From: Diphasiastrum complanatum
Lineage: Eukaryota > Streptophyta > Lycopodiopsida > Lycopodiales > Lycopodiaceae
NCBI GenBank assembly: GCA_029204225.1
Contig: CM055097.1
Location: 5,523,620-5,587,619 of the forward strand
Length of the DNA stretch: 64,000 bases
Direction of reading: 5' to 3'
The position numbers and the translations under genes are program-made. The notes beneath the pieces are model-generated. The model saw only the letters and a list, made by a program, of their open reading frames with translations, searched no databases and was not told the origin of the DNA. Shown here piece by piece: positions 10,566 to 62,983 of this stretch (position 1 is the first letter of the stretch; each line of letters starts with the position of its first letter).

Positions 10566-10570
10566 ATCTG
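10566..10570 (+). repeat. Left target-site duplication of Copia C (ATCTG)
   Basis: Five bases before the 5' LTR, identical to 16989-16993 after the 3' LTR. Confidence 0.95.
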
Positions 10571-11225
10571 TGTGAAAATTGTCAACATTTCCTAGCTAGT
10601 TTGAGGCCTAAATTGGCTAAAATTGTAAATAGTTTTGGTTCTGGAGTTTCACACGTGTGAACCAGGCCACAATGTTTTTATTTACTGTATTTTTTCAGTA
10701 TGATGAAGTGTCAAACTTCATACCCTTCAAAATGAGACCATTTTGATGTATTTTGGTCATATAAGCCATTTTTAGCTATTTTTCTTATATAGGGAATATC
10801 TAGGGTCAAGTACCTTCTAGAGAGAGGAGAGAGAGTCATCTTCCTCATCCATAAATAGTAGGGAAGTCGTGGAGAACAGGTTGGAGAAACCTTTTGTATG
10901 CTTCATTGAGATCAATAGATCATTGTCATTGTTTCTTCCTCCATTGAGAGCATTGTTGTGTGTATTGTCTTCAAGCTATTGTGTATGATCTTAGGTGCTT
11001 TCCAAAAGTGGTAGGCTGATGTATTATGGACTGTATAATGCTATTTTGGGCCGCACTTGATGTTTATGGAAGTTTCCATTTGTGATAAATGCTTTTTGAT
11101 CAAGTTCTTTGCATTCTAGGTAGCATAGAATGTGTTGCCAATTCCTAGCTTATGTAGTTTGGAGTGCAAGCATTCAAGCCAATGATCTTGGAGTTTAGAT
11201 CCACTTAGGATCTGTATTTTTCACA
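10571..11225 (+). repeat. 5' LTR of Copia C
   Basis: 655 bp from TGTGAAAATTG to TTTTTCACA. Contains the CACACGTGTG palindrome at 10650-10659. There is a TATA-like stretch (TTATATAGGG) at about 10785-10795, a likely core promoter. Confidence 0.97.
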
Positions 11226-11240
11226 TGGTATCAGAGCTGG
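11226..11240 (+). other. Primer binding site of Copia C (tRNA-iMet)
   Basis: TGGTATCAGAGC directly after the LTR, a perfect match to the complement of the plant initiator tRNA-Met 3' end. Confidence 0.95.
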
Positions 11241-12397
11241 TTGGCTTCTATTTACAGTAAGTATTCCATTTTTGGTGATATTTGGATGTTTGATCAAGTT
11301 CTAGCATGATTTTGCATTGCTTTGTTGATCAAATCTTACTAACCTTTGTTTTGTGAGTTGAACTTGTGGATCAAAAGCATATTTCAGGTCTATTGAAGAT
11401 CAGAGGCTGAAAAGAAACTATTTTGGATCAGATCATAACACCTAATCATTTGTGATTGTGAGGCTTGTGCATATTCAATACTAACAATGTTCTTTTCAAT
11501 CCTATTGTTGACAATCTCCATTCTTGGATGAACACTCTCCTTAAGTGGATGAAACTTCTCCTTAAGTGGATGACAAATGCTCTTTTGAGTGAGTTGTAAT
11601 TCTCCTAAAGGCTGAGCAAAGCTCCCATTTGGATGAAAGATCCCCTTTTTTGGGTGAACATATTGTAAGCTCCATTGTGAAGAGCATATTGTAAAGATTG
11701 TCATCAATTTTGGCATAAATTTTGGTGTACTTTGTTGAGCATGTAAGTAACTCTCCTTATGTAATTTGATTAGAGCATTTGCTGGAAGGTGTTAACCATT
11801 ATGCAAGTGTGTTTTCAGGTTCTTAACAGGTTGAGGAACATTCTCATGTGAAGTGATCTTAGATCTACATCTAAACACCAAGATTTGACAAGATAGTGAA
11901 GCTAGTCTTGTGATTCACTAAGTGTGCTCATTCATTCACCTCTAAATCTTGTATTTATCACTTGCTGGAGTTTATAAACTTTTAGAAGTGTGGTTTACAT
12001 GTGGTTTTACAGGTTGAATCAATATCTTAGTGTGTTGATCATATGTTGATCAAGTTTGTTCATTACTAGGTAATCTTGGCATCCTAGTTTTGGGTATTTT
12101 CTAAGAATGCAAGTAACTCTTCACACCATAACTTGATTTGGTCACTTGCTGGAAAGTTTGAGAGCTTAAGCAAGAGTGTGTTCAGGTTGGTTTGATTTTG
12201 TAATCCATTCTTAGTGTGTGCAAAGTGTTGCATGTGTTTCAATCTTCCTTTCTATGCTTGGAAACCATCTAGGTTCAAGATAGAAGTGTTTTAGGGTCCT
12301 AAATCTTCATAGATCTCTTTATCTATCATTTGTTGAGAGAAAAGTGAGTGCTAAGTGCTTTAGGACAGAACCTAAAAGTTGAAGAAACATTAGAATC
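11241..12397 (+). other. Untranslated leader of Copia C with three imperfect repeats
   Basis: No long ORF. Three related stretches at about 11741-11822, 11940-12015 and 12106-12190 share a TTGCTGGA core followed some 40 bases later by TTTTCAGGTT or a variant. The CAG-GTT ends resemble splice acceptors, but this may be coincidence. The leader presumably carries packaging signals. Confidence 0.5.
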
Positions 12398-15300
12398 ATG
12401 GCTTCCAATGGTGGGATCATGCTAGAGTCTAGTGAAAGGTTGAGTTCATCAAACTACTCTACTTGGAAAGTGAGGATGGAGTCATTACTTGAGTTGAATG
12501 AACTCATGGACATAGTTGCAGAAATTGAAGAGAGACCTCTCACACTTCAAGAGCAACAAAGGTTTGATAAGAAGGCCAAAAGGGCTCTTCATATCATTAA
12601 AATGAATGTTACAAATGAACTTCTCAAGGAAGTTGGAAAGTGTCAAAGTGCAAGTGAGGCATGGAATGCCTTAAAGAAGCTCTTTGAATCAAAGTCCACA
12701 TCTAGGGTATTGACCCTAAGGAGACAAATATTTTCTAGTAGGCAAAGAGAGGGTGAAAGTGCTCATGCATTTATCTTGAGAGTTAAGTCCCTAAGTGATG
12801 ATTTAGCATGCATTGATGAGAACATAAAAGATGGTGAAATAGTCCAAGTTATGTTGAATGGTTTGCTAAATGAACATGCTAACCTTGTGCAAAGTTTTGC
12901 CATTCAAAGAGTCTTGCCAAGTGTGGTTGACTTGCAAGAAATCTTATTGGCTGAAGAACATAGGTTGCAATCAAAGCTTGATGGTGCATCCTTGCAAGGT
13001 GGAGGTGAAGAGGCTTTCTTCACAAAAGGCAAATTCAAGGGCAAAGGTAAAGGCAAAGGGAAATGGTCCAAAGTGGGTAACTTTGATCATGATGATTACT
13101 CTTCCTCTTCCTCTTCTACTAAGAACAATAAGTCAAAGTTCAAGTGCTTTTATTGTGGGATAAAAGGTCATTTTGCAAATGAATGTTATAAGAAGAAAAG
13201 AGAGCAAGGAGAGAGGCAAGGAAATCTTACAATAGATGAGGAAGAACATAACACATGTGAATCACTTGTTATGACTTCAAGTTTGTTAGCCAACATAGAT
13301 GATAATGATCCTTGGTGGATTGATAGTGGAGCCTCATCTCACATGACAAGACATAAGGAATACTTTACATCCTTATTGTCTTATGAGGGAGAAGGTAACA
13401 TCATCTACACTGCAAATGATGGTCAATGTGACATCAAAGGCATAGGCACTATTCCTATTTCCCTTTCAACAAATAGGAAAGCAAATCTTGAAAATGTTTT
13501 GTACATTCCTTCAATCACTAAGAATTTGCTTAGTGTAAGTCAAATGATTGACAAAGGACTTGATGTGGAGTTCATTGGAGATGCATGTTTGATAAGTAAA
13601 TGTGGATCCTTGATTGCTCAAGGTAGGAGGCATGGTAAACTTTTCAAGATTGATGCATGTGTGATCTCTAATCATGAAGGATGTATGGCTAGGGAGCAAT
13701 TGACAAACCAAGAAGTTTGGCACAAGAGGTTGGGCCATCCCAACTTCAAATCTTTGGAGGTAATGGCAAAGAAAGAGCTTGTTCTTGGTCTCCCTAAAAG
13801 TCTTGTTGCAAACAATAGTGTTTGTGAACATTGTGCCTTGTCCAAATCTCATAGACTTGCTTATTCTAGATCTACTTCTAGATCTAAAGAAGCTTTTCAA
13901 CTTGTGCATTCTGATATTCATTCTTCTAGTACAACTAGCAATGGTGGGGCAAAGATGTATGCAACTTTCATTGATGACTTTAGTAGGTATACTTGGATCT
14001 ATCTTCTTAAAAGTAAGGATGAAGTGTTTGCTGCATTTGTCAAGTTCAAGAATGAAATGGAAAACCAATTCAATACAAAGATCAAATGCTTAAGATCTGA
14101 TAATGGAGGGGAATACACCTCAAATAGGTTCAAAGACTTTTGTATAGCACATGGGATTAAGAGGGAGATGTCTAGTCCTAGGACTCCACAACAGAATGGA
14201 GTGGCCGAGAGGAAGAATAGAACCCTTTGTGAATGTGCCAAGGCAATGAGACTACATGCTAATCTTGCTAAGTCTTTTTTGGGGGAAGCTTTAGCATGTG
14301 CTAACTATCTATGTAATAGATGGACAAGTGCTTCCTTGGATGGTAAAACTCCTCATGAGGTTCTTTATGGTAGAAGGCCGAGTGTCAAGCATTGTAGGAT
14401 CTTTGGATGTACATGTTTTGTCAATATCACACTTGATGATAGAACTAAAGAAGATCCTTCATCAAAGAAGGGTGTGTTTGTTGGTTATAGTGAAGTAAGC
14501 AAGGCTTACAAAGTGTACATTCCTTCTACAAAGAAAGTTGTCATAAGTAGGGATGTCATCTTTCATGAAGAGAATGTTTCCAATGTTGTTGATGTTGATG
14601 TTGATGTGCCTACTAATCATCATGATGTGCAAGATGTCTTGGATGAAGATGGAGATGCCACTCCAAAGCAAACTTCAAGGAAGACTCAAAGGCAAAGGGC
14701 TAAGCCATCAAGGCTAACCTATGATGAAAAAGGAAAGCAAGTGGTGGACAACTCTAACTTTGCTTTTCTTACCTCTTTTGATGAACCAACTTGTGTAGGT
14801 GAAGCAATTCAAAAGAAGGAATGGATCCAAGCCATGGATCATGAGCATCAAGCACTCATCAAAAGCAACACATGGAGGTTGGTAAAGCTTCCAAAGGACA
14901 AGAAGGCAATTGGTTGTAAGTGGATCTTCAAGATCAAGACAAATCAAGATGGATCAATCAACAAGTACAAGGCAAGGTTGGTGGCAAAGGGGTATGCTCA
15001 AGAATATGGTATTGACTATGATGAGACCTTTGCACCCGTGGCAAAGATGGTAACTATTCGAATCCTAATCTCTCTTGCAACTCTTTATGATTGGGATATG
15101 TGGCAAATGGATGTTACTAATGCCTTCTTGAATGGTGATCTTGAAGAAGATATTTACATGGAGCAACCCGAGGGCTATGTTTCACATGATGAGCCTAATC
15201 ATGTGTGCTATCTCCAAAAGAGTTTGTATGGGCTAAAGCAAGCACCAAGGAGTTGGTATGCTAAGCTCAATTCCTTCTTACTTTCTCAAAACTTTGTTAT

Positions 15301-16338
15301 GAGTGAGTATGATCATTCTCTCTACTTTAGATTGAATGAAAATGATATCACTTTACTTTTGATCTATGTTGATGACATTATCTTAAGTGGTGGTAACAAT
15401 CTAGATATAGATGAAATCAAGATGGCACTCAAAAGAGAGTTTGAAATTCAAGATCTTGGTAAACTTCATTATATCTTAGGAATAGAGATTATTAGAACTT
15501 CTAAACCTACATTCATATGTCAAGAAAAGTATGTTAACTCTATTCTAAAAAGGTTTCATATGGAAGATTGTAAAGTTGTTTCTACTCCTATGGAATCAAA
15601 TGTAAAGCTAACTACAAGAAGTAATGAAAGATCCTTCAAGGACATTACTCTCTATAGAAAGCTAATAGGATCTCTTATATGGTTAACCATCACAAGACCT
15701 GATCTAAGCTTTGTGGTTGGTAAACTAAGTCAATTTATGCAAGATCCTAGTGAGGCTCATTGGAAGCTAGGAAAGAGAGTACTTAGATACATCTCGGGAT
15801 CTAGAGATTTTGGCATCTTGTATGGAGGTACTACACCTAACCTTTGTGGATTTTCAGATTCAGATTTTGCAGGTGATCAAATGGATAGGAAGTCAACAAG
15901 TGCCTTTGCAATCTATCTTGGAGATGGAGTGGTCTCATGGCTATCAAAGAAGCAACCAACTATCTCTCTATCTTCCACCGAAGCCGAGTACAAGGCATTA
16001 ACAACATGCACCAAGGAGATTCTTTGGATCAAGAGGATGTTATTGGATCTTCACTTGCTGGAACCAGAGAAGACTCCAATCATACTTCAGCCCAAAGCTT
16101 GGCAAGCAATCCTGTTTTTCATGCAAGGAGCAAGCACATTGAGATTGCTCACCATTTTGTGAGAGATCAAGTCATTGCCAAAGAGGTGGAGCTTCAACAT
16201 GTCTCTTCAAAGGAGTGTGTGGCTGATATCTTCACCAAACCATTGGGAAAGGACCTATATTTAATGCATAGATCTAATCTTGGAATGTGCTCAAAGACTA
16301 TGTTGAAACTAGCATCCAATGTTGAAGAGGGAGTGTGA
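12398..16338 (+). CDS. Copia C gag-pol polyprotein, frameshifted in RNase H
   Basis: The frame is open from ATG 12398 to 16162 (1254 codons). Order: UBN2-type gag (about 1-230); zinc knuckle C250-C263 (CFYCGIKGHFANEC); protease D309 in DSGASSHM; integrase zinc residues H442, H447, C476, C479; integrase catalytic D506, D568, E604 (DX35E spacing); RT YVDD at 990-993; RNase H D1154 in SDSDFAGD and E1195 in STEAEY. At about 16085-16092 a deletion (best estimate 13 bp) removes the Cys-Asp-Asn codons and shifts the frame. The true C-terminus (NPVFHARSKHIE to IFTKPLGKD) follows in another frame to 16338. The protein would make particles and probably cDNA, but lacks complete RNase H. Confidence 0.95.
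16321..16333 (+). other. Polypurine tract of Copia C
   Basis: GTTGAAGAGGGAG directly before the 3' LTR. Confidence 0.9.
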
Positions 16339-16988
16339 AAATTGTCAACATTTCCTAGCTAGTTTGAGGCCTAAATTGGCTAAAATTGTAAATAGTTTTG
16401 GTTATGGAGTTTCACACGTGTGAACCAGGCCACAATGTTTTTATTTACTGTATTTTTTCAGTATGATGAAGTGTCAAACTTCATACCCTTCAAAATGAGA
16501 CCATTTTGATGTATTTTGGTCATATAAGCCATTTTTAGCTATTTTTCTTATATAGGGAATATCTAGGGTCAAGTACCTTCTAGAGAGAGGAGAGAGAGTC
16601 ATCTTCCTCATCCATAAATAGTAGGGAAGTCGTGGAGAACAGGTTGGAGAAACCTTTTGTATGCTTCATTGAGATCAATAGATCATTGTCATTGTTTCTT
16701 CCTCCATTGAGAGCATTGTTGTGTGTATTGTCTTCAAGCTATTGTGTATGATCTTAGGTGCTTTCCAAAAGTGGTAGGCTGATGTATTATGGACTGTATA
16801 ATGCTATTTTGGGCCGCACTTGATGTTTATGGAAGTTTCCATTTGTGATAAATGCTTTTTGATCAAGTTCTTTGCATTCTAGGTAGCATAGAATGTGTTG
16901 CCAATTCCTAGCTTATGTAGTTTGGAGTGCAAGCATTCAAGCCAATGATCTTGGAGTTTAGATCCACTTAGGATCTGTATTTTTCACA
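16334..16988 (+). repeat. 3' LTR of Copia C
   Basis: 655 bp, one mismatch to the 5' LTR. The palindrome copy is at 16413-16422. The target-site duplication ATCTG follows at 16989-16993. Confidence 0.97.
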
Positions 16989-17369: not shown

Positions 17370-18341
17370 CCACCAACCAACATCTTGCACCAAATAGGCA
17401 CAACCTAGACAAAGCTTGGAGTCTTGTGTTGAACATTCCTCTCGAAAGAGTCCATTTTTGCACAATGCATGGTGAATTACGAATATTGGACAAATTATTA
17501 TTTTTGCATTGTTGTTATGCATGGAACATGCAACCCAAATCAAGAGCAGATGTTAGCATTAGAAATCTAGAGATAATTTTATCCGATATGGGATTGCATG
17601 GGGGCCACGTGAGTCTTACCAAAGACGTTGAGATGAGTGGAAAAACGCAAGATGTTCCAGCAAAAGTTTCAATGGGTGGTGCGAAAGTGAGACACCTATT
17701 GTCAAATCATATTGTGCGTGAAAGCAGTGTTGAATGGGAGTACTGGAAGAAAATATGTCAATGCACAACAAATATTGGCTCAGATCCTCGCATGGCAAGT
17801 ACACGTGCTAAGGTTTGGCAAGCATTTGATGCCTTGTCACAAACTATGAACAAAAAAATTGTGAGATATAAAGATTTGGATAGATACGCAAGAGAAGTCA
17901 AAACATTACTGAATTGATGATTGATGCATGGGGAGAAACACACATAACTCACTATATGGTATGTGTGTCATATTTTTTACTTTCGTATTTATGTATTTAT
18001 AAAGATTTAAACTAATACAAATTTTCTATGAACAACACATCTTCTATGCTCATGGACCTTGGTTTATGAAAACCTACGGATCATTAGCTATTTGGAACAC
18101 GCAAGGCATGGAAAAGAGTCATTATAGGGCAAAGGTTGCGTATTTCAAAAATTCACGCCATGGCGGAGGAAAGGGTCTTAGCAATGCATTGGTTGAGATA
18201 TTCCAATGGTTTTACAGAGGAGTTTTGGGCCGAGGACACTTTCAAAACACAAGAACTAAAGAGTTGAGTTCAATGATCTCCAATTCAAATTCAGTTAGAA
18301 AGACAACATGGCAATCCTCTAATGCTAGAACAAGGCATTAA
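17370..18341 (+). pseudogene. Transposase-like protein, C-terminal half
   Basis: A frame running to 17917 codes for about 180 residues (motif ERVHFCTMHGELRILDKLL early on). A small frameshift at about 17914 leads into IDAWGETHITHYM. A probable intron begins at GTATGTG (about 17957). Coding resumes by about 18030 with HGPWFMKTYGSLAIWN and QGMEKSHYRAK, then a Gly-rich and Trp-rich segment. This pattern (a conserved H-G stretch followed by NTQGMEKSHYR) is one I recall from uncharacterised transposase-like proteins of plants and invertebrates. No start and no N-terminal half here; the N-terminal half of what looks like the same family is at 61.2-62.7 kb. Function in DNA transposition is inferred only. 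Confidence 0.5.
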
Positions 18342-18632
18342 GAATGGAGGATGTCTAGAGTTCGAGTTGAAAAGAGATGGATGCCAAGGACACCAACATC
18401 CAATGTTTTGGGAAACAACGCTAGAGAAGCTAAGGAAACTGATGAGATGGAATAGAAGCAATTTATGTTGAATTGTAATTTGAATATTCCTTTGCGATAA
18501 ATATTACTGACGAATTGGATTGCTGTTATAAATAGAAATTACTTTATTTTGTTTCTTTCCTCGTGATTTAGCTTGTCTTGTTCAATTAGACTACTAGTTT
18601 GTTGGTAAATTAGTGTTCTTAGTTGCATAACA

Positions 18633-20093
18633 ATGTCGTCCTCTAAAATAGAGTTGGCCAATCTGCTAGCCTCCACACAGTTTTTAGATAAGTTAGATCG
18701 TATTTATTGTATGTTTACCGGTAGAAGAGACACGCTTGCCACTCTACGAGCTAATATGGATGCATTCACGTATGTGAGTGAGTATATAGATAAAACTTTG
18801 AAGCCTTATGCCATACAAATTCCTGGCTCAACTATCATGTGGATTCCATATAACTTGCTTAGTTATATATGGAAAGGAGATAGACCCTTTATCGCTCGTC
18901 TCGACAGATTTATTAGTCACTTGGGTAACGATCATTACTTGGAGCTGACCAAGGACCAGCTGAAAACTTTTGATCTTGAAAGTGTAGGAAATAAATTTCT
19001 ATTCGGTGAGATTACTGTTATTTTTTTGCTTAATGAGTTTCCAGCGACTGTGGCCAGCAACAAACACAATCCTAGTGAGCAGATGAACGAGATGCATGAC
19101 CCGGGTGAAGAGGAAGATTTATCCTCGGAGCACAAAGCAGTCTTGGCTGTGCAAGAGGCAATAGGTGAATCCACATCAGTGAAGCCAGAAGATATAGATG
19201 AGTCCGATGATCTCGTGCTTCGAATCCATGGCCTTGCTCCAATCATCATTGATGGGCAAGAGTATGTGTTCATGCATGACTTGCAACATATTCTCGGCTT
19301 GCGAGAAGATGAGATGCTGGCAGCATTGGTAAATTTGCAGAATGGCAGTTCCACTTTCGACCACACCCAGCCCGACGACACGTATGAGAAGCTGATCGGG
19401 CTTGACACAGACACCACCGAGCAAGCACTGGCAAGAGTGCTTTGCCAATTGAAAACGCTTCAACCACTACCAGTTCAAACAAGGCCATTCGAGGTACTCG
19501 AAGAAAAAACTGTTGACGTGAAGTACAAAGGCAAAGGAATTGAGCTTGCGCAAACCGAAGACATTGATGAAGGGACCGAGGCAAGTCTGACCCAACAATT
19601 CAACTTGCATATTTTTGTTATGTTTGTTTGTCTTCATTATACTCATTTTGCAATAATTTGGACCAATTGTAGGACGCAGTGGAGATTGATGCATTTGCAA
19701 TGCGAAGGAGTGGCGTTTGGGAGAAAGTTGAAGCAGGAACTCTGGACAGGTCTATGGCCCACTACATTGGGAACTTGGCCAACAACTTTATTTTCTGCTT
19801 CAGTAACAAGTACAGCCCAGAGGGACCGACGGAGCTTCTTAAATGCAAAGCACTCTCATTGGTGAGGTCGAGTTGTCACCGTCAGCGCCAAAGGCTTACT
19901 GTGTCCTTCGAAAAGCCGTTCTGAATTCTGCCTTGGATTCGAGACCCGACTCATTCTCTCGAGTTTAATTGGCCCTTATGAGAATGAGAGTGATGCTCCT
20001 AAATTAGCACTAGAAATGTTAAAACTAGTACTGTCATCAGAGAAGCGATCAGAGAAGCTGAAGTCCTCTCTGAAGGAAATGAATCAAATGTGA
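18633..20093 (+). CDS. Unknown protein gene, probably with intron or frameshifts
   Basis: ATG at 18633 opens a frame coding for about 317 residues up to about 19584, with no recognised family. It is acidic in the middle (about 155-200) and has a segment around DGQEYVFMHDLQHILGLRE (about 209-227) that looks like a small folded domain. A likely intron spans 19585-19679 (GT-AG, T-rich), and joining keeps phase into a frame read to about 19860. Coding-like sequence then continues in two more frames to a TGA at 20091-20093, overlapped by a possible AATAAA signal. The frame changes may be further introns or decay. It converges on the H3-like gene. I cannot assign a function. Confidence 0.5.
19585..19679 (+). 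other. Probable intron in the unknown gene
   Basis: GT at 19585 and CAG ending at 19679. The enclosed sequence is T-rich with an in-frame stop in exon phase, and removal joins frame 0 to the frame starting ATG-GAG-ATT. The donor (GTCTGA) is weak. Confidence 0.4.
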
Positions 20094-20220
20094 ATAAAGA
20101 TTTTGTCATTTTTTTCTTGTGGACTCTCCTAATTCTCTGTTGCAATTATATGATGTGCTTATTCATTGAATTTAGAATTTAATTTTTTTTTCTTTGATAA
20201 AAATTTCTCGTCTTTTTTCC

Positions 20221-20365
20221 GTGGCTTGAAAATCATGCCAGGGCGTGACCAGGGGCTGTTTGACCTGGTCAAACGGGCCCTGGTCGCGCCTTGGTACGCA
20301 AATCATGTCCGTTTGACCAGGTCAAACGGACCCTGGTCGCGCCTTGGCGTGATTTTCATGCCATG
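20221..20365. repeat. GC-rich nested palindrome/inverted repeat
   Basis: Two near-perfect 17-bp palindromes (GTTTGACC-N-GGTCAAAC) lie about 50 bp apart, each followed by CCCTGGTCGCGCCTTGG. The outer flanks (AAAATCATGCC and GGCGTGATTTTCATGCC) are also inverted. The whole can fold into a long hairpin and is much more GC-rich than its surroundings. It sits between the convergent unknown gene and H3-like gene. It could be a miniature inverted-repeat element or a structured RNA. Confidence 0.6.
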
Positions 20366-20553
20366 TAAAAAAGACCTATCTTAGCTACAACATGCTTAAA
20401 GAAACTACCATTCCCATAGTACTGAAAATTTTAAATCACTGCATTCACATAGATGGTACTAAAATTTTCAAATCATTGCATTCACATAAATAGTACTGAA
20501 ATCATATATTAAACTCAATCACAACAATTTGCATTCACATAACCTGAAATTTT

Positions 20554-21768
20554 TCAAGATACTTGACACCAAATCTTCAGTATATTATAAATAAAATCAT
20601 GTACATGATATTTTTGATTGCGCTCTCTCCTTAGCCTTCTAGCTAGGTGAAGATCCTTCGCGAGTATTGTGACTCTCTTCCCGTGTACTGCACACAACAA
20701 TGAGTCCTCAAAAAGCTGCGTTAGGTACATTTCCGTAGACTCTCGTATTGCGGACACAACATCTGCCGTAACTCTGTTCCCCAAGGAAAATTCATCGACC
20801 ATTTCTTTTACAAGCCTCACAGAAGAGGCCCTAGGTATCAAAAATTTTACGAACTTTTGATAGCTTCGTATATCCTGGAGCCACTTTGCGATCCTACGCT
20901 TCCTACGCAGTCGAGGAGGTGGTGGCTACATCCTACGGAGCTCCTTTCTAGCCCATGGTGCTGCACGAGGGGCCGGCCTACCCCTGCCACGCTCTACGGT
21001 CCTACTTGGGCCAGCTGCGGCAGAACTTGGAGGTGGTGGAGGTGGAGGTGGAGGCTGTGGAGGTGATGTTGGCGGTGTGGGCAGTGGTGATGGCTGCCAA
21101 GCTGCAGGGTTCCGTCGCTTTGATGTAGAGCCTGCCTTGCGAGGATTCTTTGTCTTTTGCTCATTTGCTCCTCTCCCTAACCATCTATGGGTTGCCTTCT
21201 GCTTCATCCTTGCTGTGCGCAACATCGGGGTGCCCTCATCAGAACCACCCACCAGCAACGACATCATTGGACTCATCACCAGGCCGTGACTTGGGGGTGA
21301 CACGGTGGGTGTGGAGGCACCCAATATGCCTAAATTTGTTGTGTCCATGCCCATTGCTGGTGGAAATGGGTCAAAGAAAGAATCATTAAGAACCGGCAAC
21401 TCACCCAATGCCGCAAGCTCCTCATCTAGGAACTTCATTGTTTCTTCCCGTTCAGTTGTCGTCGGGGAAGGGCTTTTTTGTCGTGGTGACTGTTGCTGCT
21501 GCTGCTAGTCCTCCTGCTGTTGCTAGTCTTCTTGCTGCTGCTGCTCACTCTGGTCCTCCTGTGCAGCTATTGTGCGGGCCATGTCCTTCTCAGCTTCACG
21601 CTGAGTGGCCGGATCTTCATGAGACGTTGTTGGGCTGCGACTCCTACTCCTGCTTCTGCTCCCCCATCTCTCTCTCTCATCGAGGGTGACTAGTGCATCC
21701 CTATGGAGCAATGCAGTCATTCTAGGATCTCTAGCCGTTTGTTTTGTCCATGCCATTTCCTCCGACAT
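20554..21768 (-). pseudogene. Histone H3-derived gene with long insertion between tail and fold
   Basis: A single minus-strand frame of 404 codons plus stop from ATG 21768. Codons 5-13 read MAWTKQTAR, the histone H3 N-terminus with one change at R2. Codons 296-384 match the whole H3 histone fold: an IRSYQK alpha-N region, a VRLVKEM helix, LFEDSLLCAVHGKRVTI and KDLHLARRLRRER. Loop 1 has the same length as H3, unlike typical cenH3. Between them lie about 280 codons with an RS repeat (37-45), poly-Gln and a proline run. Three in-frame TAGs interrupt it: codons 82, 88 and 281; two fall in the CAG tract and look like CAG-to-TAG changes. Without readthrough it is a pseudogene; in life it would be a nuclear, DNA-bound H3 variant or H3 mimic. 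Confidence 0.75.
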
Positions 21769-21883: not shown

Positions 21884-21890
21884 TTATATA
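21884..21890 (-). promoter_or_regulatory. TATA box of the H3-derived gene
   Basis: On the minus strand ACTATATAAGGA lies about 115-120 bp upstream of ATG 21768, a plausible distance for a TATA box with an about 85-base 5' UTR. Confidence 0.5.
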
Positions 21891-22385: not shown

Positions 22386-23577
22386 TTTTGTGCATTACGA
22401 GTGAAGACAAAATCTGCTGGCACATTAGCAAAAGTCAATCCGAGCATATGCCGAAGATCTTCTAGGCTACACTCCTTATTTATATGAATTTCTCGTATTT
22501 CATCATGGGGCAAAAGTATGGATATCTCCACTTCTTGTTAATTCGTCTCCGCATCTAGAGGGTCCCATCAGCCATGACCAAATTTATATCACCTATAGAT
22601 GAAACTTAAGGAGCATGTTTGATGTGAAATATGATACCTTATGGTCATTGTTTCACAAGAGAGCTTACATCTTATTAAATCTCCTTTATGCTCCATTTCC
22701 TTTGAATCCCATGCGGCAAATATGTTATCCAACAGTGATGATTTTGTTGCTTTCCAAGCCCACATCGTGTTTGTTTTCCTGAAGGGGACCACCTTAAATA
22801 TGGCAACAAATACGGTGATTGACACAGAGATGCTAGTGTAGACTCGTTTGGATCCGAATGTTGGCTTCATATTACCAGTAATCTCTTTGAAAATTTGCCT
22901 CTTCGTCAATTCAATAGTCAGTTGGTCAACATATGGCCACTCATGAGAATCGATCGCAGGCTCAAAAATTGGTGCTAATTTGCCTTGGCCAAGGTTTTTT
23001 TTTGGAAGTTTGTACATGTGATCGTAAAAGAAAATGCCCATTTTGATCAGGGCAGAGGATGCCAACCCACCATATATTAGTTCTCCACATTTGGCGTGTA
23101 TGGCGGAGAGTTTTCCAGTGAAGGACTTCACGTTTTGCCAGTCGAAGCTATTTGAAGGAAAGACATCTGCACCAGGCATTAATGCACCATTATTATCCAT
23201 TACAATGACATAATAATAATTCAAAAACTAATAGTTAACACAAGAATAAAAGAGGTAAGACATACAATGTGACTATATGGTTCTATCAGCAACAGCCACA
23301 TCCAATAAAATATCTCGACGCATGTATACGTGTTGCACATTTGCAAGGTATTCGCCGTTTTGGTCGATCTTGAAATCGTGGATCCTCCTTTCCAATGGTA
23401 GTCTTGGTTGTTTCGCTTCCTCTTTGCAACCTTGTGAGTTCCTTTGCCTGATGGTTGCATGTAAACCCAGTCAAAAGTTGAAAATGTATGGGGCACCCAA
23501 TGCTCATTGGAATCTTTGATGTGTGCAACAATGGAAGCTAGTTGATTCTTGGGCTTCCTTGGTTGAGTAGAGGCCAT
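22386..23577 (-). CDS. Unknown spliced gene
   Basis: ATG at 23577 opens a Lys/Gln-rich N-terminal part to about 23266. A second frame (23227 to about 22638) codes for about 200 residues of folded-protein composition, including GKLAPIFEPAIDSHEWPYVD. They join in phase through a GT-AG gap of only 38 bp, so this is either a tiny intron or a frameshift. A normal donor GTATCA at about 22637 and acceptor near 22593 mark another probable intron. Coding-like sequence resumes about 22535-22386 (ISILLPHDEIREIHIN onward, reminiscent of a beta-grasp fold) and ends near a GTGAG donor-like site. Family not recognised. It is upstream of, and on the same strand as, the H3-derived gene. Confidence 0.45.
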
Positions 23578-24225
23578 AATGGATGATGTAATGATAATGT
23601 AGGATATGCAAAATAGTGTGTGAGATCTTCAGATAAGGTGAACCGAAATAAAAAAATAGAATATTTGTGGAGTATACAGAATGAGAGAGAGAGAGAGGTC
23701 GTTTAGAGAGAGACTACAAAATGAGAGAGAGATGAGAGATACAAGCTTGTGAACATTCAAAATTTGAAATAAGGACTAGGCTCACTTAGGATATGGCTGC
23801 TAGTGGATAGACAGGCTAGTTGATGTTAACTTGTAGGCATAGTTATTGCTTTATCTAGGGTTAATGTTAGAGGTGTACTTTGTGGGCCCACACTTGATTT
23901 AATCTACACCATTGAATTTGCCATGTCATATGGACCATTCCTTCTCAGTTGTCAATATTTTATTGGGACACGTGTCATCATTAACACTAATTATAATTAG
24001 TGAAGAGGCCCTTTTTGAGTCCAAAAAGGGCCCTAATGACAGAACGAGAGAGCGCCAGGGTGTAGGAGAGCCAAAAAATCGCCAGTAGATCATCGCCAGA
24101 GAGCTCCAGAGTTTGCACTTCGCTGAGGTGCGAATGGCGTCGAGGTGATGGAATTTATGGACACTGTCAGCTGGGTTCGCACGCGATGGGACGTGTCTAT
24201 TCGTTGGATTTTGAATGAGAAACGT
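23578..24225. other. Intergenic region with GA tract and a short hairpin
   Basis: No gene. A GA-rich stretch lies at about 23683-23740. A perfect 11-bp inverted repeat (GGCCCTTTTTG, 4-base loop) is at 24007-24032. Confidence 0.5.
24007..24032. repeat. Perfect 11-bp hairpin
   Basis: Arms GGCCCTTTTTG and CAAAAAGGGCC separated by AGTC. No gene end adjoins it, so a terminator role is not indicated. Confidence 0.6.
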
Positions 24226-24570
24226 CGGTCGAGATTTGATGGAGTCGCGTCAGTCGAGATATGAGAGAGTCACATCGGTTGAAATCTGATAAAAATCCAT
24301 CGATTGAGATCTGAACGAATCCCTCGATTGAGATTTGAGCGGATCCCGTCGGTTGAGATTTGAGCGGATCCATCGGTTGAGATTTGAACGGATCCCATCG
24401 GTTGAGATTTGAGCGAATTTCGTCGGTTGAGATTTGAGCGGATCCGTCGGTTGAGATTTGAACGGATCCCATTGGTTGAGATTTGAGCGGATCCCGTTGG
24501 TTGAGATTTGAACGGATCCCGTCGATTGAAATTTGACAAAATCCCGTCGGTTGAGATTTGACAAAATCCC
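24226..24570. repeat. Minisatellite, about 14 units of 24-25 bp
   Basis: Units of the form CGGTTGAGATTTGAGCGGATCCCGT repeat about 14 times with increasing divergence at the left end. Because 25 is not a multiple of 3, all three minus-strand frames stay open for long stretches and give repetitive peptides; these are by-products of the repeat, not genes. Confidence 0.9.
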
Positions 24571-24681
24571 AATATGAAGGAATGGATCTGTGTGATGCAA
24601 GTGAAGAACTTCAAGGGAAAAATATGATTGTGGCCTACAGTAGAAGTTCTTATGAAAAGAGTGTATCCCCAGGAATGTTTG

Positions 24682-25259
24682 TGTCAAAATATTGGAAAAA
24701 TCTATCTAATGTTGTGAGTAGGGGTCCAAAAAATGCCAAAGATGAATTAATCTCTTTTGGCTTAGTAAAGACCCATCTTCAAATAAAATATTCAAGGTAG
24801 GTAGAAGTAGAAACTCAAGCTACCATAGGAATTGCCATTTGTACTTTGCATGCCACATTTAATGCATGAAAAGACTAGGTGGCACAATTAGACATAGTGA
24901 GGTGGCTTGAATAAGTCTAGATAGCTTGAGAGGTGGATTCACAACTCCAATTTAGCTCAAAGTAGGAGGAGAGTCCATGGATCTATATATATGTGATGTA
25001 CGCTCATTGAGAAGATGATGAAATTTGTGTGAATTGCAAATTTGGAGACAAGCTCTTTGTGCCCTCTCTCTCTACATGAGTTTTGTACTTTCTATTTTCT
25101 CTCTTTGGCCGAGTTGAGGCATTTATTATGCTAAGTTTCATGTTTTGTTGACAGATCTTGCTTGTAACACTACCAATGCTAGTCTAATCTTTATGGTATT
25201 ATTGGGCTTAGGAGATCAAAAGTACATGTGTAGGGCGTCCCACACGTGTGAATTCAGCA
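24682..25259 (+). repeat. 5' LTR of Copia B
   Basis: From TGTCAAAATATTGG to AATTCAGCA. Carries a CACACGTGTG palindrome at 25241-25250 just before its end, and a TATATATATG stretch at about 24983-24993 as a likely TATA region. Confidence 0.9.
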
Positions 25260-25271
25260 TCGTATCAGAGC
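25260..25271 (+). other. Primer binding site of Copia B
   Basis: TCGTATCAGAGC, one mismatch from the tRNA-iMet primer site. Confidence 0.8.
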
Positions 25272-26013
25272 CTACCTAAGATTTACAAGCAAATCTAATA
25301 AAAAAGTTTGCAAATTCGATCAGATTCCAAGCTAGGAATCTCTAAATTCTACTTTCTAGCTAGTTTGCAATTTTATGATGATTTAGAGCTTTAAACCACT
25401 TTGAATGGTCCAGATCAAGTACTATATGGAATTTCAGGTGCTGGCACGTGTGAAATCCGCCCATTTTCAGTTTGGTGGTTCTCTCCCACCTTAGATCCAA
25501 ATTTCATGCAAATTAGCCCACTAGAAAGCTAGAAATGTGTGGAATCTGATGTAATTTGAAAAATGACAATTGGATAAGCAAATAAGAAGTTATAAGCTTT
25601 TGAAGAGTTGTAGGTAGGGCACCTAGACCTGTGGCAAATCATGTGTACATGTCATTTATTGCCTGAATGATCACAAAAATCATCCAGAAGTTGGACAATC
25701 TCATCTATATGTGATTTAGACAAAATTTATAGGTTCTAGACAAATTTTTTCATACAAATAGATTGTATTTGAGTCAATTTGACATTTTTGGAGTATTTCA
25801 CATGTGTGAAATTCAGAGAACCATAACTTTTGCCATACTTCATCTTTTTTGATGATTCAAATCTTGTTTTAAAGAGATTGTCAAGCTAGTGAGATCTATC
25901 TCACAGTTTTTTGCTTAGTCTTACATAGGATTTGGTTTTGTACCCTTGATTGGTCCCTATAGTGAGAAGATAAGCAATTTTTCATCCATCTTTTTTTATT
26001 TCCATCATTCTTT

Positions 26014-26650
26014 ATGACTTCAATGGGTGTCTTTCTATTAGAAGCAAGTGAAAGATTGTCAACCTCCAATTACTCAATTTGGAAGGCTAGAATGGAATCT
26101 GTCTTAATACTACAAGATGTGATGGATATTGTACTTGGCATTGAAGAAGAACCACAAATTCCTCAAGAAATTCCAAAGTACAAAAAGAGAGTTGGGATGG
26201 CTCTGCATTATATTAAGATGAATGTCTCAAATGACATCTTAAGAGAAATCGGTGCATGTACTAATGCCAAATATGCTTGGGATACTCTCAAGTCCATCTA
26301 TGAGGCAAAGAATACTTCTAGACTTCTAACACTAAGAAACCAAAGACAAGCACAAGACAAGAAGTAAGAATCAACACCAACTCTCTTCAAGCAAGAACAA
26401 TCTTATTTCCAAGGAGAAAGGAGAAGAGGATGAGTCCTCTCAAGCTTCCGCATCCAAGAAGAAAAAAAAAACATCAAGTGTTTCTTTTGTGGCAAGAAGG
26501 GGCATTATGCCACCAATTGCTTCAAGAAGAAGAGTCAATTCAAGCAAGCCAACATTTCTAATGAAGAGAAGGAAGATGCTCATGCAAGTGATGGAGAGGG
26601 ATCTCTTCTGGTCTCGAGTTTTTCCTCATCACCTTTCAAGAAGGATGATT
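26014..26650 (+). pseudogene. Copia B gag, internally deleted
   Basis: N-terminal gag codons 26014-26340 match gag of element A (SERLSTSNYSIWKARMES). The frame then breaks and about 130 codons are missing. A zinc knuckle (CFFCGKKGHYATNC) follows at about 26478-26520 in another frame. Confidence 0.85.
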
Positions 26651-28050
26651 TGTGGTATATAGACAGTGGAGCTTCCTCACATATGTGTAGCTCCAAGTAT
26701 TCTTTTTCATCCATGTCACCTTATGAAGGAGCCAAGAAGTCCATCTACACAGCAAATGATCATGAGTGTGCTATTGAAAGCATAGGGACCATTCCCTTAA
26801 AGCTTTCATCATCAAAAGTCCTTTCTCTGTCTAAAGTATTTTTTGTTCCTAAGTTAACAAAAAATCTTATTAGTGTTGGGCAATTGTTTGATAGTGGACT
26901 AGATGTGAATTTCAATGTTGATACATGTACAATCAAGAAGCATGATGAGATCCTTGCATTTGGGTCTAGATATGGTGGAATCTACAAGCTTGATCCCAAA
27001 GAGTATGCTAACTCTTGTGATAGTCCTTTTGCTTCCCATATGTCTTTGGAGGAACTATGACATAGAAGGTTGGGGCATCCTAACTATAATTCTATGGCGT
27101 CCATGGTCAAGAAAGCCAAAGCTATTGGCTTGCCTAATCTTATCTCCAAGAATTTCAAGCCATGTGAGGCTTCTGCCATATCTAAGTCCCATAAGAAGCC
27201 TTTTTCAAAGTCATCCATCAAGACTACACATCCATTGGAGCTCATACACTTGGATGTGCACTTCTCATCTTCAAAGAGCAAGGGTGGTGCAACTTGCTTT
27301 GTAACTTTCATTGATGATTTCACAAGATTTATGTGGGTATATCTTCTAGCTTCAAAGTCTATGGTGTTTGACTATTTCCTAAAGTTCAAAGCTCTAGTTG
27401 AAAAGCAATTTTTATACAAAATCAAGATTCTTAGAAGTGATGGGGGTGGTGAGTACACTTCCAATAAATTTCATGATTATTGTGAGCTTGAAGGCATTAA
27501 AAGGGAGTTTTCTTGTGCATATACACCATCTCAAAATGGGGTGGCTGAAAGAAAGAATAGAACATTGTGTGAATGTGCCAAACCCATTAGAATTGAGGTG
27601 TCCTTGCCAAAAGACTTTTGGGGTGAGGCCATCAACTGTTCAAACTATCTTTGCAATCGACTCCCTCATGTAGCACTTGGAGGAAAGTCACCATATGAAG
27701 CACTTTATTTGAAGAAACCTAAGGTTGATCACCTTAGAGTATTTGGATGCATATGCTTTGTCCATATTCCCTTGGAAATGAGAAAGAAGGATGATCCTTG
27801 TGCAAACAAAGGAGTAATGGTTGGATATTCATCCAACAAGAAAGCCTATCAAATCTACATGCTCTCTACTTCTAAAGTAATTGATACTAGAGATGTAGCT
27901 TTTAATGAAGAAGAAAAGTCCAATCTTGGAGGGGCCGAGATCAAGCAACCTCAAAATCTATCACCTTTTGTTATTGAAGACAATCAACATATGGAGGAGT
28001 CGAGATTTGAAGATGGAAGTCCTCAATTTTCACTCCTAGAAGATCCATGA
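26650..28050 (+). pseudogene. Copia B protease and integrase
   Basis: Intact protease motif (WYIDSGASSHM). TGA at 27058-27060 replaces the Trp codon just before the integrase zinc motif HRRLGHP. The second Cys of the zinc site reads Ser (CEAS). DDE motifs (HLDV, SDGGGEY, QNGVAERKNR) are readable. The frame is lost at about 28040. Confidence 0.85.
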
Positions 28051-29682
28051 GGGAGAGATCCGAGCCTAAGAGGCTCACTTATGATGACAAAGAAAAACAA
28101 GTCGATCTTGATTCCACTTATGCTTATTTTGTTTCTCACGAGGAGCCCAAAGATGTCCAAGAAGCCCTCAATACCAAGGAGTGGTATGAGGCCATGAAGA
28201 TTGAATATGATGTCTTGATCACCAACCACACATGGGACCTAGTGGATCCACCACCTAACATGCATATCATTGGATGCAAGTGGGTGTTCAAGATCAAGTA
28301 CAATCATGATGGCTCCATCAACAAGTACAAGGCAAGATTATGTGCTAAAGGCTTTGCACAAATATATGGCCTTGACTATGAAAAAACCTTTGCTCCTGTA
28401 GCAAAGATGGTGACAATAAGAATCATAATTTCTCTGGCCTTATTTTTTAAGTGGAAACTGTTTCAACTTGATGTCTCCAATGCTTTTTTTGAATGGCTAT
28501 CTTGAGGAGGAGATATACATGGAATAGTCTCAAGGATTTATCAAGGATAAATATAAGGTGTGTTTGCTATTTAGAATTCTTTATGGCTTGAAGCAAGCAC
28601 CTAGATCATGGTATTCAAGACTCAACAACTTTCTACTTTCATTAGGATTTGTGCTTAGTGACTATGATCTTTCTATGTACTTAAAGTTTGATGGTAGTAA
28701 TATTGTCATTCTTCTAATCTATGTAGATGAAATTATTCTTAGTGGAAGTTGTTTGATGCTAGTTCAAGAAACCAAAGATGCATTAGGAAAAGAATTCAAA
28801 ATGCAAGATCTAGGAGAAATCCATTACATTTTAGGCCTTGAAATTGATTTTCATGAAGAGTATGCTTTTATTTGTCAATCTAGAAATGTCTTTTCTATGT
28901 TGAGAAAATTCAATATGCAAAATTGTAAAGGCATAGATACTCCCATGGAGCAACATGTAAAAGATCCTATTAAAGGTGATGAAAGATCCTTCGAGGACAT
29001 CACACTTTATAGGAGTCTTATAGGCTCTTTAATTTGGCTTACTATCACTAGACCCGATTTGAGCTATTGTGTGCACAAATTGAGTCAATTTATGCAAGAT
29101 CCCAAGATCTAACATTGGAAGATGGCAAAGAGAGTTCTAAGATATGTATCTTCTACTCAAGATTATGGTTTATTGTACAAGAATGAAGATCTAACCATTG
29201 TTGGCTATTTGGATTCTGATTTTGCAAGTGATAAAATGGATCAAAAGCTCATTAATGCATATACTATCTTTCTTGGAGGCAATCTTCCGTCTTGGCTTTC
29301 AAAGAAGCAAGATACCATATCTCTATCTTGTGAGGCCGAGTACAAAGCAGTCACTACAACAACTAAAGAGGTGCTTTGGATCAAGAGGTTAATCACGGAG
29401 CTAAAGTACATCAAAGAGGATGATCTTCCCTTGATCAAATGTGACAACATATCGGCACAAGATCTTGCAAACAATCCTATTTTTCATGCAAGAAGCAAGC
29501 ATATCGAAGTGGCACACCATTTTGTAAGGGAAAAGCTCATTGGAGGTGAAATCAACTTGGAACACATCGACACATCTTCATGTATCGCTGATCTTCTCAC
29601 AAAGCCACTTTGCAAAAGTGCCTTCTCAAAGCATAGGTGTAATTTTGGTCTTATCTCAAGATCGATGCTTGATCCACATTAG
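28047..29682 (+). pseudogene. Copia B reverse transcriptase and RNase H
   Basis: RT starts with the expected CKWVFKIKYN block. A frameshift at about 28490 and stops follow. The active site at 28720-28731 reads YVDE in place of YVDD, a substitution of a catalytic Asp. RNase H keeps CDN, ARSKHIE and LTKPL motifs. Stop codon TAA near 29110. Confidence 0.85.
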
Positions 29683-29700
29683 ATACATTTTTAGGAGGAG

Positions 29701-30172
29701 TGTCAAAATATTAGAAAAATCTATCTAATGTTGTGAGTAGGGGTCCTAAAAATGCCAAAGATGAATTAAGCTCTTTTGGCTAAGTAAAGGCCCATCTTAG
29801 AATAAAATATTCAAGGTAGGTAGAAGTAGAAACTCGAGCTACCATAGGAATTGCCATTTGTACTTTACATGCCACATTTAATGCATGAAAAGGCTAGGTG
29901 GCACAATTAGACATAGTGAGGTGGCTTGAATAAGTCTAGATAGCTTGAGAGGTGGATTCACAACTCCAATGCAACTCAAAGTAGGAGGAGAGTCCATGGA
30001 TCTATATATATGTGATGTACTCTCATTGAGAAAATGATGAAATTTGTGTGAATTGCAAATTTGGAGACAAGCTCTTTGTGCCCTCTCTCTCTACACGAGT
30101 TTTGTACTTTCTATTTTCTCTCTCTAGTTGAGTTGAGACATTTATTATGCTTAGTTTCATGTTTTGTTGGCA
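29701..30172 (+). repeat. 3' LTR of Copia B, truncated
   Basis: Begins TGTCAAAATATTAG after the purine tract AGGAGGAG and matches the 5' LTR until about 30172, where unrelated sequence begins. The last 107 bp of the LTR are missing. Confidence 0.9.
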
Positions 30173-61065: not shown

Positions 61066-61260
61066 AGTTCAGCACTAGAATGTCACAAAGTAGCTGGTTG
61101 GTGAATTGCTTCAAGGTTTGCTCAATGATTCTGGTGTTCCAACCCCTTTTTTTTTTTTTCTTTGTGGGAGATGGAAATAAAAAAAAGAAAAGAAAAAAGA
61201 GAGATCAAAATACTTTTGTTCCACCTAGATTCAAACATACAATATATAAAAAAAATTCTT
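61066..61260. other. Junction, poly-T and A-rich, no gene
   Basis: A T-tract and purine tract. The transposase-like gene fragment starts abruptly at about 61261, so this is probably a rearrangement boundary. Confidence 0.4.
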
Positions 61261-62717
61261 CGCATTTGCACCGAGACCACAACCGTACATGCATTTCAAA
61301 GTCTTCAAATCAGCAGCTAGGTGCCATTCTACAGCAAAGCTTTCTCCTTCAACATTGAGCAATTTGCCTTCATTTTGTGCATGTATTATCTTAGATATAC
61401 TACATTTTTCAAATAGCCACTCCAGTACGTCGTGAGACTCCTTAGGAACTTCAAATGCAGCTATCCACCATATGTGATTTTCGGATTGCACGCTAAATTC
61501 TTTACAATAACTTCCGCCAAATTATTGCAATTCACGATTCATCAATGTGATTGTGACACGTTCAAGTTTACGCCCTTTTACGATTTCTGCTTCGTCCAAC
61601 TTAATAACAAATATAACTTTACCTCCGCAATCTGTAAAATAAAAATTTCATTATGAAAACATATTAGTTGAAAAAAAGCATACAATTGAAAACCGAAATC
61701 CACAATAAATGTTCTTACCATTTGTTCTAACTTCGTAATGTCAGATCATCATCGCTTGGACCTTTTCCAGATCTAAGAATATATTGTTGCCTTGATGATA
61801 ATGAAAACATGTCGGAAGTCCTTTCTTCTTATTGGTTACTGTAAAAGAATCCTCAATATGCTGAAACTCTCCTAATTCAGAGAGCAAAATCGAATTGCAT
61901 TCTCGTTTGGCGGATTCAACAAGTTTATAAATAGGTATTATTTGATGGCATTTTAACCCATTTTTGTCAGAGCATTTCATATACTTCTTCAAAGCTCTAT
62001 ACCCCTTGCGACTCACACCTCCTTGGTCACATGCGTACACCATCTCTTTAACATTTGGATTTGGCTTGAACTTGTCGACTAGCTTTTTTGCAATTCTCAA
62101 ACGAATTGAATCACTTGTTTCATCTTCCACAATCTCCTCATACGTCTTTTACTAGCACCACCACCTGGTGCCAAAGCTTCTAGTTTGTGTCTCTTAGTGT
62201 TTTCATTTTGTGCTTGCTGATCCATCAAGACTCTACGCTTTCGTTGTAAGCCATATATTGTCCTCTGAAATATACTGATTGAAGATTGCAATTCTTCAAT
62301 TTTTGAGATAGAACTAGCAAGCTCTATTTTCAAATTATTTATCTCCTCCTCTAGTTTCATATTTATTTCATGCAATGACTTTAAATTATCATTCATACTC
62401 AAGATATGAATGTTTGCCGTATTTGCCAATGTCTCAACTTGGATTCTTCGAGAATCCATTGCTTGACAATAGCCAAGCAGTCCATTCCGACCATCCCCAA
62501 CAAACTTTAACAAACTATGTACATCAGAAAATTTAGGAGGAGCATCTACCAGTGGATTATGAGGGTATAAATCACCTCTTACCCATAGGTCAATATGTTT
62601 TTTGCCATCTAATCTCCAACAATGCATGTCATACGGATTTAAGTTAACACCCCATGCAGCTTTGGTGGTCGCATAATCCTTCTCTAACTTCACATGTAAG
62701 TGATACTTGGTTGTCAT
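61231..62717 (-). pseudogene. Transposase-like protein, N-terminal half, with 87-bp intron
   Basis: ATG at 62717. About 195 residues include a coiled coil (about 100-150). A 1-base frameshift near 62131 leads to the next frame. A consensus intron follows: donor GTAAGA at 61718, acceptor TTTTACAG ending 61632 (87 bp). Splicing restores frame into a segment with WHLAADLKTLKCMYGCGLGANAK, then the gene is cut at about 61261. TGA (61741-61743) and a TAA (CAA to TAA) also break it. The pattern DLKxL...GL-GA-AK, followed in family members by a Cys-rich motif, fits the same family as 17.4-18.3 kb, from memory. No function proven. Confidence 0.6.
61632..61718 (-). other. 87-bp intron
   Basis: GTAAGA donor, polypyrimidine TTTTATTTTACAG acceptor; its removal keeps the reading frame across the join. 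Confidence 0.8.
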
Positions 62718-62983
62718 CTTGACGATATCGAATATCCCAAAAGAATCTATGTAGAACTTTACAATATACCTTAATCAAATGGTGTCAAAGTTCAATGTGA
62801 ACTAACCATTGTGAAGGATTTCAGATAATTCTAGATCCAATCCATGTCCCAAATCTTTGGTTACAATAAGGAGCAAACCAACAATCCTGCCAATGTAGAA
62901 AAATCAGCATCTACATACAAAATGAGATGCAAACTCTAAGAGATATTGATCAAACATGAACCAAAACATCTTTCGTAAGAAAG
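62718..62983. other. Intergenic, no feature
   Basis: Short stretch between the transposase-like gene and the Copia gag remnant on opposite strands; nothing supported. Confidence 0.5.

Follow-up and report, generated by a model that had tools for sequence, protein, structure and literature searches.

A DNA transposon of the clubmoss Diphasiastrum complanatum carries an H3-derived gene together with a putative RAG1-like transposase

The window, that is the whole stretch of 64,000 nucleotides analysed here (contig CM055097.1, here C6, positions 5,523,620 to 5,587,619 of the forward strand), holds a decayed and rearranged copy of a ~9 kb TIR-bounded DNA transposon. Within this copy, at 20554-21768 on the minus strand, lies a single reading frame that begins with MSEEMAWTKQTARDPR and ends in a histone H3 fold. 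The features of the copy are as follows:

20614-21768, minus strand: H3-like gene, window copy (pseudogene), with TAG at codons 82, 88 and 281, the stop lost and the frame continuing to 20554
21730-21756, minus strand: H3 tail start MAWTKQTAR (MARTKQTAR in 3/15 aligned copies), then D at K9 and P at S10
20617-20883, minus strand: H3 histone fold, from the end of alphaN to LARRLRRER
21884-21890, minus strand: TATATAA, 122 nt 5' of ATG1, in 13/13 copies examined
22592-23224, minus strand: element gene A1, on the same strand as the H3-like gene, with no Pfam family above cut-off
23231-23733, minus strand: element gene A0, in broken frames, with no Pfam family above cut-off
24002-24038, minus strand: A-end TIR of 37 bp, itself a hairpin (z -5.7)
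18609-19865, plus strand: element gene X (ORF 18633-19865, 410 codons)
18003-18452, plus strand: putative transposase exon C, with an H-x4-H-x19-E motif (HIFYAH...NTQGME at 18036)
17375-18007, plus strand: putative transposase exon B, C-terminal part
61252-61647, minus strand: putative transposase exon B, N-terminal part, which holds the first catalytic Asp (KLDEAE near 61602) and has been separated from the rest by an inversion, with CxxC at the break
61900-62774, minus strand: putative transposase exon A, N-terminal region, in two frames
17374-61204, no strand assigned: segment that, judging from order and strand, is inverted relative to other copies, with breakpoints within transposase exon B

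The window copy of the H3-like gene is a pseudogene: three in-frame TAGs interrupt it, the original stop after RRERN is gone, and the final ~20 codons are read-through. A first-pass annotation of the sequence had described a 404-codon frame with an H3 tail start and a distant histone fold; the layout of tail, linker and fold stands, whereas the frame is not open. The details that it listed are all present on the minus strand, namely MAWTKQTAR at codons 5-13, a fold at codons ~296-384 with LFED, LCAVHGKRVTI and KDLHLARR (Pfam Histone, E = 1e-19), Lys at the K4 position and Asp at K9, and tracts of RS, Gln and Pro. Decay probably accounts for the Trp at H3 position 2, where 9 of the 15 aligned copies have Arg, 4 have Trp and 2 have Gln. 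An inverted repeat with 67-nt arms (88% complementary) lies immediately 3' of the gene (window 20210-20375).

Intact paralogues, which the annotation had advised looking for in the same genome, were found with the same tail and fold. The copy at locus L039 has an open frame of 417 codons that begins MSEE-MARTKQTAR-DPRVTALL... and runs through RS repeats, a Gln tract, a Pro tract and the fold to RRERN and a stop. H3 residues 1-8 (ARTKQTAR) are exact behind the MSEE-Met leader and are followed by D at K9, and an RS/Gln/Pro linker of ~280 residues is inserted between these eight residues and the complete fold. We aligned 15 copies, picked by similarity to the gene region and representing 11 lineages once near-identical pairs are collapsed. 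The order of tail, linker and fold is kept in all 15, and MARTKQTAR is exact in 3; chance is therefore not a serious option. Six copies are free of frameshifts from tail to fold, nine are frameshifted, and only two (L011 and L039) are stop-free through the end of the fold. The K9 position is Asp in 13 copies and Gly in two near-identical ones (L012, L014); the S10 position is Pro in 15/15. Variants of the tail start (R2W/Q, T3M) are, read by eye, largely C-to-T or G-to-A changes at CpG and fit CpG decay. K27 and K36 are not alignable by eye. In the alignment with host H3, with residues numbered as in canonical H3, the retained residues include His113, Asp123, Arg83 and Lys56, and the altered ones are R49Q, K53S and F84V. 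The upstream TATATAA is found in 13/13 copies after exclusion of two near-duplicates. ATG1 is preceded by CCA or CTA, and ATG2 stands in the context GAAATGG in 12 of 13 copies, from which we infer that translation may start at ATG2; because ATG1 precedes the H3-like start, most of the protein may carry the tail at an internal position.

The protein is best regarded as H3-derived, and not as an ordinary H3. A scan of the element ORFs assigns the gene to Pfam Histone (2.3e-25), and a PDB search with an open sibling copy (P0002) returns H3 chains alone among the best 60 of 176 matches (top E = 3e-24), both of which place the fold in the histone H3 family. A Foldseek search with a low-confidence model of the window fold (pLDDT 52) gives nucleosome and octamer chains at 43-48% identity, together with one UAF entry, among the best 50 matches. 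The tail is not the normal-length ARTKQTARKS tail joined to the fold, owing to the D at K9 and the ~280-residue insert. The longer loop 1 and divergent tail of cenH3 are likewise not seen: loop 1 aligns with host H3 gap-free across 89 codons and the tail start is exact. The alignment score is 251 with host H3 versus 194 with Arabidopsis CENH3, 196 with CENP-A and 195 with Cse4, while identity is 51/97 versus 41/83, 41/90 and 41/84, respectively; yeast H3 (49/98) and the protein P0073 (50/96) are as close to the element protein as host H3. The earlier statement that this is not a typical cenH3 is borne out by the length of loop 1, by the scores and by the fact that other copies have H3 residues 1-8 exact, although identity differs little and the tree does not place the clade. 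That tree, which the annotation had proposed, recovers the element copies as a clade with support 100/99 and pairs it with Arabidopsis CENH3 at a weak 85/77, flagged as a long-branch join.

A Pfam histone search of the 1.74 Gb assembly, which intron-split variants would escape, gave 6325 first-look candidates, of which 150 were scored. The 13 top matches lie at ~164 bits and the eight that were fetched (L001-L008) are canonical H3; four lower-scoring loci that were opened (L039-L042) carry the H3-like gene of the element. None of 109 candidates proved to be a homologue of the H3 fusion when proteins of comparable length were searched for the fold region. In a protein search with the fold alone, 6 of 21 candidates comprise three D. 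complanatum proteins and three more distant H3-like proteins.

The annotation had suggested an H3 mimic carried by a mobile element, and the genome bears this out: the carrier is a ~9 kb TIR element whose ends occur in hundreds of copies, and the paralogues share tail and fold. With a 3 kb query around the H3-like gene, 657 candidates were obtained; the 40 that were scored yielded 79 matching pieces, many of which span the entire query at 87-97%. Comparison of fetched loci shows sharp element limits with the same 37-bp inverted repeat at both ends, beginning CATTAGGG in 9 of the 10 ends of large fetched stretches and CATTAAGG in the tenth. The TIR-to-TIR lengths of two copies fetched whole (C6c and C21) are 8918 and 9078 bp; both copies hold the H3-like gene and the transposase ORFs. 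Genome-wide, the TIR pattern has 1609 matches with at most two mismatches and the reversed pattern has 0; there are 652 A-type and 731 B-type ends. Linkage between gene and ends was assessed with 55 non-canonical H3 matches on C1-C9 and the start of C10, and with 100 exact A-ends of the 652. At least 8 of the 55 have an A-end on their own strand at a distance of 2.3-3.3 kb, against a maximum of 1 and a mean of 0.025 in 200 shifted controls; the count is a lower bound. One 54-position C7 fragment and the C10 matches past the listed ends were left out. By position only, an H3 match also lies between paired ends in one copy on C9 and in two on C8 that form a segmental pair, giving five TIR-to-TIR copies that retain the gene, two of them (C6c, C21) by sequence. 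The arrangement is that of gene capture: TIRs enclose a host-type gene, which has been amplified along with them. An LTR retrotransposon as carrier was rejected: no LTRs appear when one copy (C10) is compared with itself, and TIRs stand at the limits.

The window copy itself spans from the A-end at 24038 to 17374, its remainder is inverted at 61205-62809, and the B-end TIR is absent (homology ends at 62809). The inverted segment is 43.8 kb long. Copies of the C8 group (L029-L031) have an internal inversion of their own, whose break lies, in element coordinates, ~1.2 kb off (near window 18552). Much of window 18963-42820 is present a second time ~208 kb off, as a 97-98% copy in a segmental duplication (C6:5751265-5754285; L010, L019-L022). 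Judged by eye from ORF content, Copia-type LTR retrotransposons occupy window 10570-16988 (LTRs 656 bp, 99.8% identity) and 24681-30172 (LTRs 473 bp, 95%). The A-end TIR forms a hairpin with a perfect stem of 11 bp (GGCCCTTTTTG...), which is uncommon at cut-and-paste ends; adjoining it on the outside is a 25-bp minisatellite of ~14 units (window 24223-24561).

The transposase lies on the opposite strand of the element to the H3-like gene. Its exon B has 67 homologues at E <=0.01; a Pfam scan of 47 of them gives no convincing family, and a search for relatives in viral contigs gives none. A structure predicted from 47 homologues with P0003 first, and hence for a homologue and not for the element's own protein, has a mean pLDDT of 80.9. 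Foldseek ranks RAG1, the enzyme that shuffles antibody genes, 1-9 for this model and HzTransib 10th; VIA-align scores are 15.1 for RAG1, 13.6 for BbRAGL, 13.2 for HzTransib, 7.6 for the P element and 4.9 for Hermes. The predicted fold is that of the RAG1 core. P0003 has motifs at D170 and D280-x19-C300xxC303, and the DDE, ZnC2 and ZnH2 residues stand at RAG1 spacing: the D, D, CC, HH, E spacing nearly equals that of RAG1 (D600, D708, C727, C730, H937, H942 and E962), with D2-to-CxxC agreeing within one residue. Strict patterns find D1 in 17, D2-CxxC in 28 and H-x4-H-x19-E in 2 of the 67 homologues, most of which are fragments without exon C. Among element copies, the E motif is present in the window and five others, D1 likewise in the window and five others, and D2-CxxC in two (L029, L034). 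Sequence similarity to RAG1 or Transib was sought in PDB and Pfam with single sequences and with a profile, and no match was found. Predicted fold and motif spacing together make the case that the element encodes a RAG1-like transposase. The proteins P0003-P0069 form a family of transposases with a RAG1-like predicted fold in public contigs, with no Pfam family in the 47/67 scanned. A BAH domain suspected by eye in gene A0 was dropped, as Pfam gave it no support.

The element is RAG1-like in its enzyme; it is not filed as RAGL or Transib, because its TIRs lack a CAC start, nor as CACTA. The ends begin CATTAGGG. CACTA (CMC) transposons have CACTA-type TIRs and 3-bp TSDs; here the TIR starts CATTA, a 3-bp repeat occurs in 1 of 12 independent TIR pairs, and there is no transposase Pfam match. 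With 5-bp TSDs in mind, the same 12 independent pairs (13 pairs in all) give one 5/5 match (CCTTT), one 4/5 and otherwise 0-2. Pfam matches no RAG2-like kelch or PHD domain in those element ORFs that were scanned, and three genes (A0, A1 and X) are without assignment. A hAT carrier as in fungi was rejected on the 8-bp TSD, which is 8/8 in 0 of 13 pairs and 5/8 at best. The CAC start is needed by ProtoRAG (PMC8289069).

Compared with eight host H3 loci over 89 codons, identity at codon positions 1, 2 and 3 is 0.60-0.64, 0.71-0.73 and 0.24-0.34 (8/8 loci), and amino acid identity of the fold to host H3 is 48/89 (54%). Synonymous sites are saturated and yet the protein is kept, which excludes a recent processed pseudogene of these eight host genes; the simple recent processed pseudogene of host H3 was accordingly rejected as an explanation. 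Relative to host H3 the protein was under long purifying selection, some of which could predate capture. The comparison within the family used 346 of 416 codons. Non-CpG changes restricted to a single lineage number 122 nonsynonymous, 38 synonymous and 7 stop, near the neutral expectation of 0.69/0.27/0.04, while those found in at least two lineages (23 nonsynonymous, 12 synonymous, 1 stop) lean weakly to constraint. CpG changes comprise 24 nonsynonymous and 10 synonymous in single lineages, and 14 nonsynonymous, 9 synonymous and 1 stop among those shared. Fixed or recent copies thus look as if they decay freely, as under neutrality.

Our preferred reading, for which we see a little better than an even chance, is that the transposon carries an H3 variant or mimic which retains K4, has Asp at K9 and may act against silencing. 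Its identity part we regard as close to certain; the mechanism is tentative and, taken as a whole, rather unlikely. An H3 gene would have been captured by the element long ago and retained as working cargo. A TATA-type promoter would express it, and at least part of translation would begin at the second ATG with its better context, exposing A-R-T-K-Q-T-A-R. The fold, in which the His and Asp of the H3-H3' contact are kept, would pair with host H4 and enter nucleosomes, probably on or near the element. The resulting chromatin would bear a K4 tail, Asp in place of K9 and no K27 or K36 that can be aligned by eye; it could look active yet not take H3K9 or K27 silencing marks, and the anti-silencing histone may also present H3K4 to the transposition complex. 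Plant transposons are silenced via H3K9me2, and because of this, and given the K4 tail, the Asp at K9 and a fold suited to pairing with H4, anti-silencing would be the most economical function. A bolder version, which we consider speculative and improbable, is that a RAG1-class plant transposon places its own K4-only, K9-less H3 on element chromatin, thereby blocking H3K9 and K27 silencing and providing RAG-type recombinases with the K4 tail that they read; control of chromatin and transposition would then be coupled in a single mobile element.

Foremost among the alternatives, and a substantial minority possibility, is a passenger: the captured H3 gene hitch-hikes, as happens in transduplication and in Pack-type elements, without benefit to the transposon. 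Gene capture by plant DNA transposons is known (PMC8903248), 13 of 15 copies are broken, and recent changes fit neutral decay. Against a passenger speak a fold preserved across saturated third positions, tail, linker and fold in 15/15 copies from 11 lineages (chosen, it should be said, by similarity to the gene region), the conserved TATATAA upstream, and the gene being kept in five TIR-to-TIR copies. The protein could alternatively be a decoy, its exposed ARTKQTAR titrating K4 readers, demethylases or methyltransferases with no need to enter nucleosomes. That exactly residues 1-8 are kept and the remaining tail replaced would suit this, as would the long and probably flexible linker, but a complete fold with retained H3-H3' residues would be superfluous and the MSEE leader may bury the N-terminus; we consider the decoy improbable. 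To the same degree we doubt that a host H3 variant which had already diverged was captured recently, in which case the constraint would be host constraint. The stem branch to the element clade is long (0.69), with no sequence in hand on it; against this, the eight high-scoring host genes sampled are canonical and the four divergent loci opened (L039-L042) carry the element gene, among 150 of 6325 candidates scored.

Still less probable is a part in the transposition machinery, the H3-like protein packaging or synapsing element DNA, or its K4 tail docking a PHD-type partner as RAG2 does with H3K4me3. The RAG1-like transposase on the same element fits such a role, and the RAG2 PHD binds H3K4me3 (PMC8355894); no RAG2, kelch or PHD domain is found in the element ORFs scanned, with three element genes lacking assignment. 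A cenH3 origin is very improbable, for the weak and long-branched join to Arabidopsis CENH3 and an identity near that to host H3 over a shorter stretch are outweighed by the alignment scores, the H3 length of loop 1 and the exact H3 residues 1-8.

H3-like genes in DNA transposons are known already from fungal hAT elements (PMC3538342, PMC6710886). In Pyrenophora tritici-repentis, hAT transposons of 5.6 kb with H3L genes occur in 26 near-identical copies; like the clubmoss element, they have an H3-like gene between TIRs together with their own transposase, N-terminal tail insertions, and a protein that is neither H3 nor cenH3 (PMC3538342). The clubmoss element differs from these fungal hATs in its RAG1-like enzyme, its ~9 kb length, its ends in hundreds, the ~280-residue insert and the Asp at K9. 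In Pseudocercospora fijiensis and relatives, histone H3 was transduplicated by a hAT element, giving, as here, high-copy H3 in DNA transposons of ~9.5 kb with mutated copies; the fungal elements show 8-bp TSDs, DUF659 and inactivation by RIP, whereas in the clubmoss an 8-bp repeat is found in 0/13 TIR pairs and an open frame exists (PMC6710886). The claim that no H3 variant with this layout was known hence needs the caveat of these fungal genes, the Pyrenophora tail insertions included. RAG-like and Transib elements share with the clubmoss element the RAG1-core fold, nearly the same spacing of key residues and the TIR structure (PMC9435367, PMC8289069, PMC7204232), and 39 plant Transib-like proteins are mentioned (PMC9435367); unlike them, the clubmoss element has TIRs that start CATTAGGG instead of CAC. 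Its 5-bp TSD is perfect in 1/12 independent pairs, no RAG2-like gene was found in the ORFs scanned, and its transposase is too distant for Pfam or PDB profiles. Viral histones (bracovirus H4, and single viral H3s with extended tails) likewise combine a selfish element, an altered core histone and a changed tail (PMC9145170, PMC5423620). For six single viral H3s, identity to a possible host H3 is 73-87%, compared with 54% (48/89) here, and the nearest in tail length are long-tailed cenH3s of 170 and >520 residues (PMC9145170).

In the open-licence PMC literature, outside which most subscription journals and preprints lie, we saw no plant transposon with an H3 gene. As far as this literature shows, what is new lies in the land plant host, in the RAG1-like carrier and in a layout that joins H3 residues 1-8 to the fold through a long linker. 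The VANC proteins of plant transposons are not known to be histones. Arabidopsis VANDAL elements with VANC are plant DNA transposons whose cargo counters epigenetic silencing, a function that for the clubmoss element is a proposal; VANCs are sequence-specific DNA binders, unlike the H3-like protein (PMC5735166, PMC10398659).

If the protein is made and assembled, it would be a natural test of a selfish element rewriting the histone code of its own DNA. The presence of a putative RAG1-like transposase and a chromatin-type protein on one clubmoss element would also bear on the dependence of RAG-type recombinases on H3K4 methylation. For genome annotation, O6H91_05G054700, 13G100400 and 07G108800, annotated as hypothetical proteins, match the fold of the transposon gene at 83-89% identity. 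P0073, P0074 and P0075, one of them from Tilletia indica, are divergent H3-like proteins with MARTK-type starts and altered or extended tails, and these might also be carried by mobile elements.
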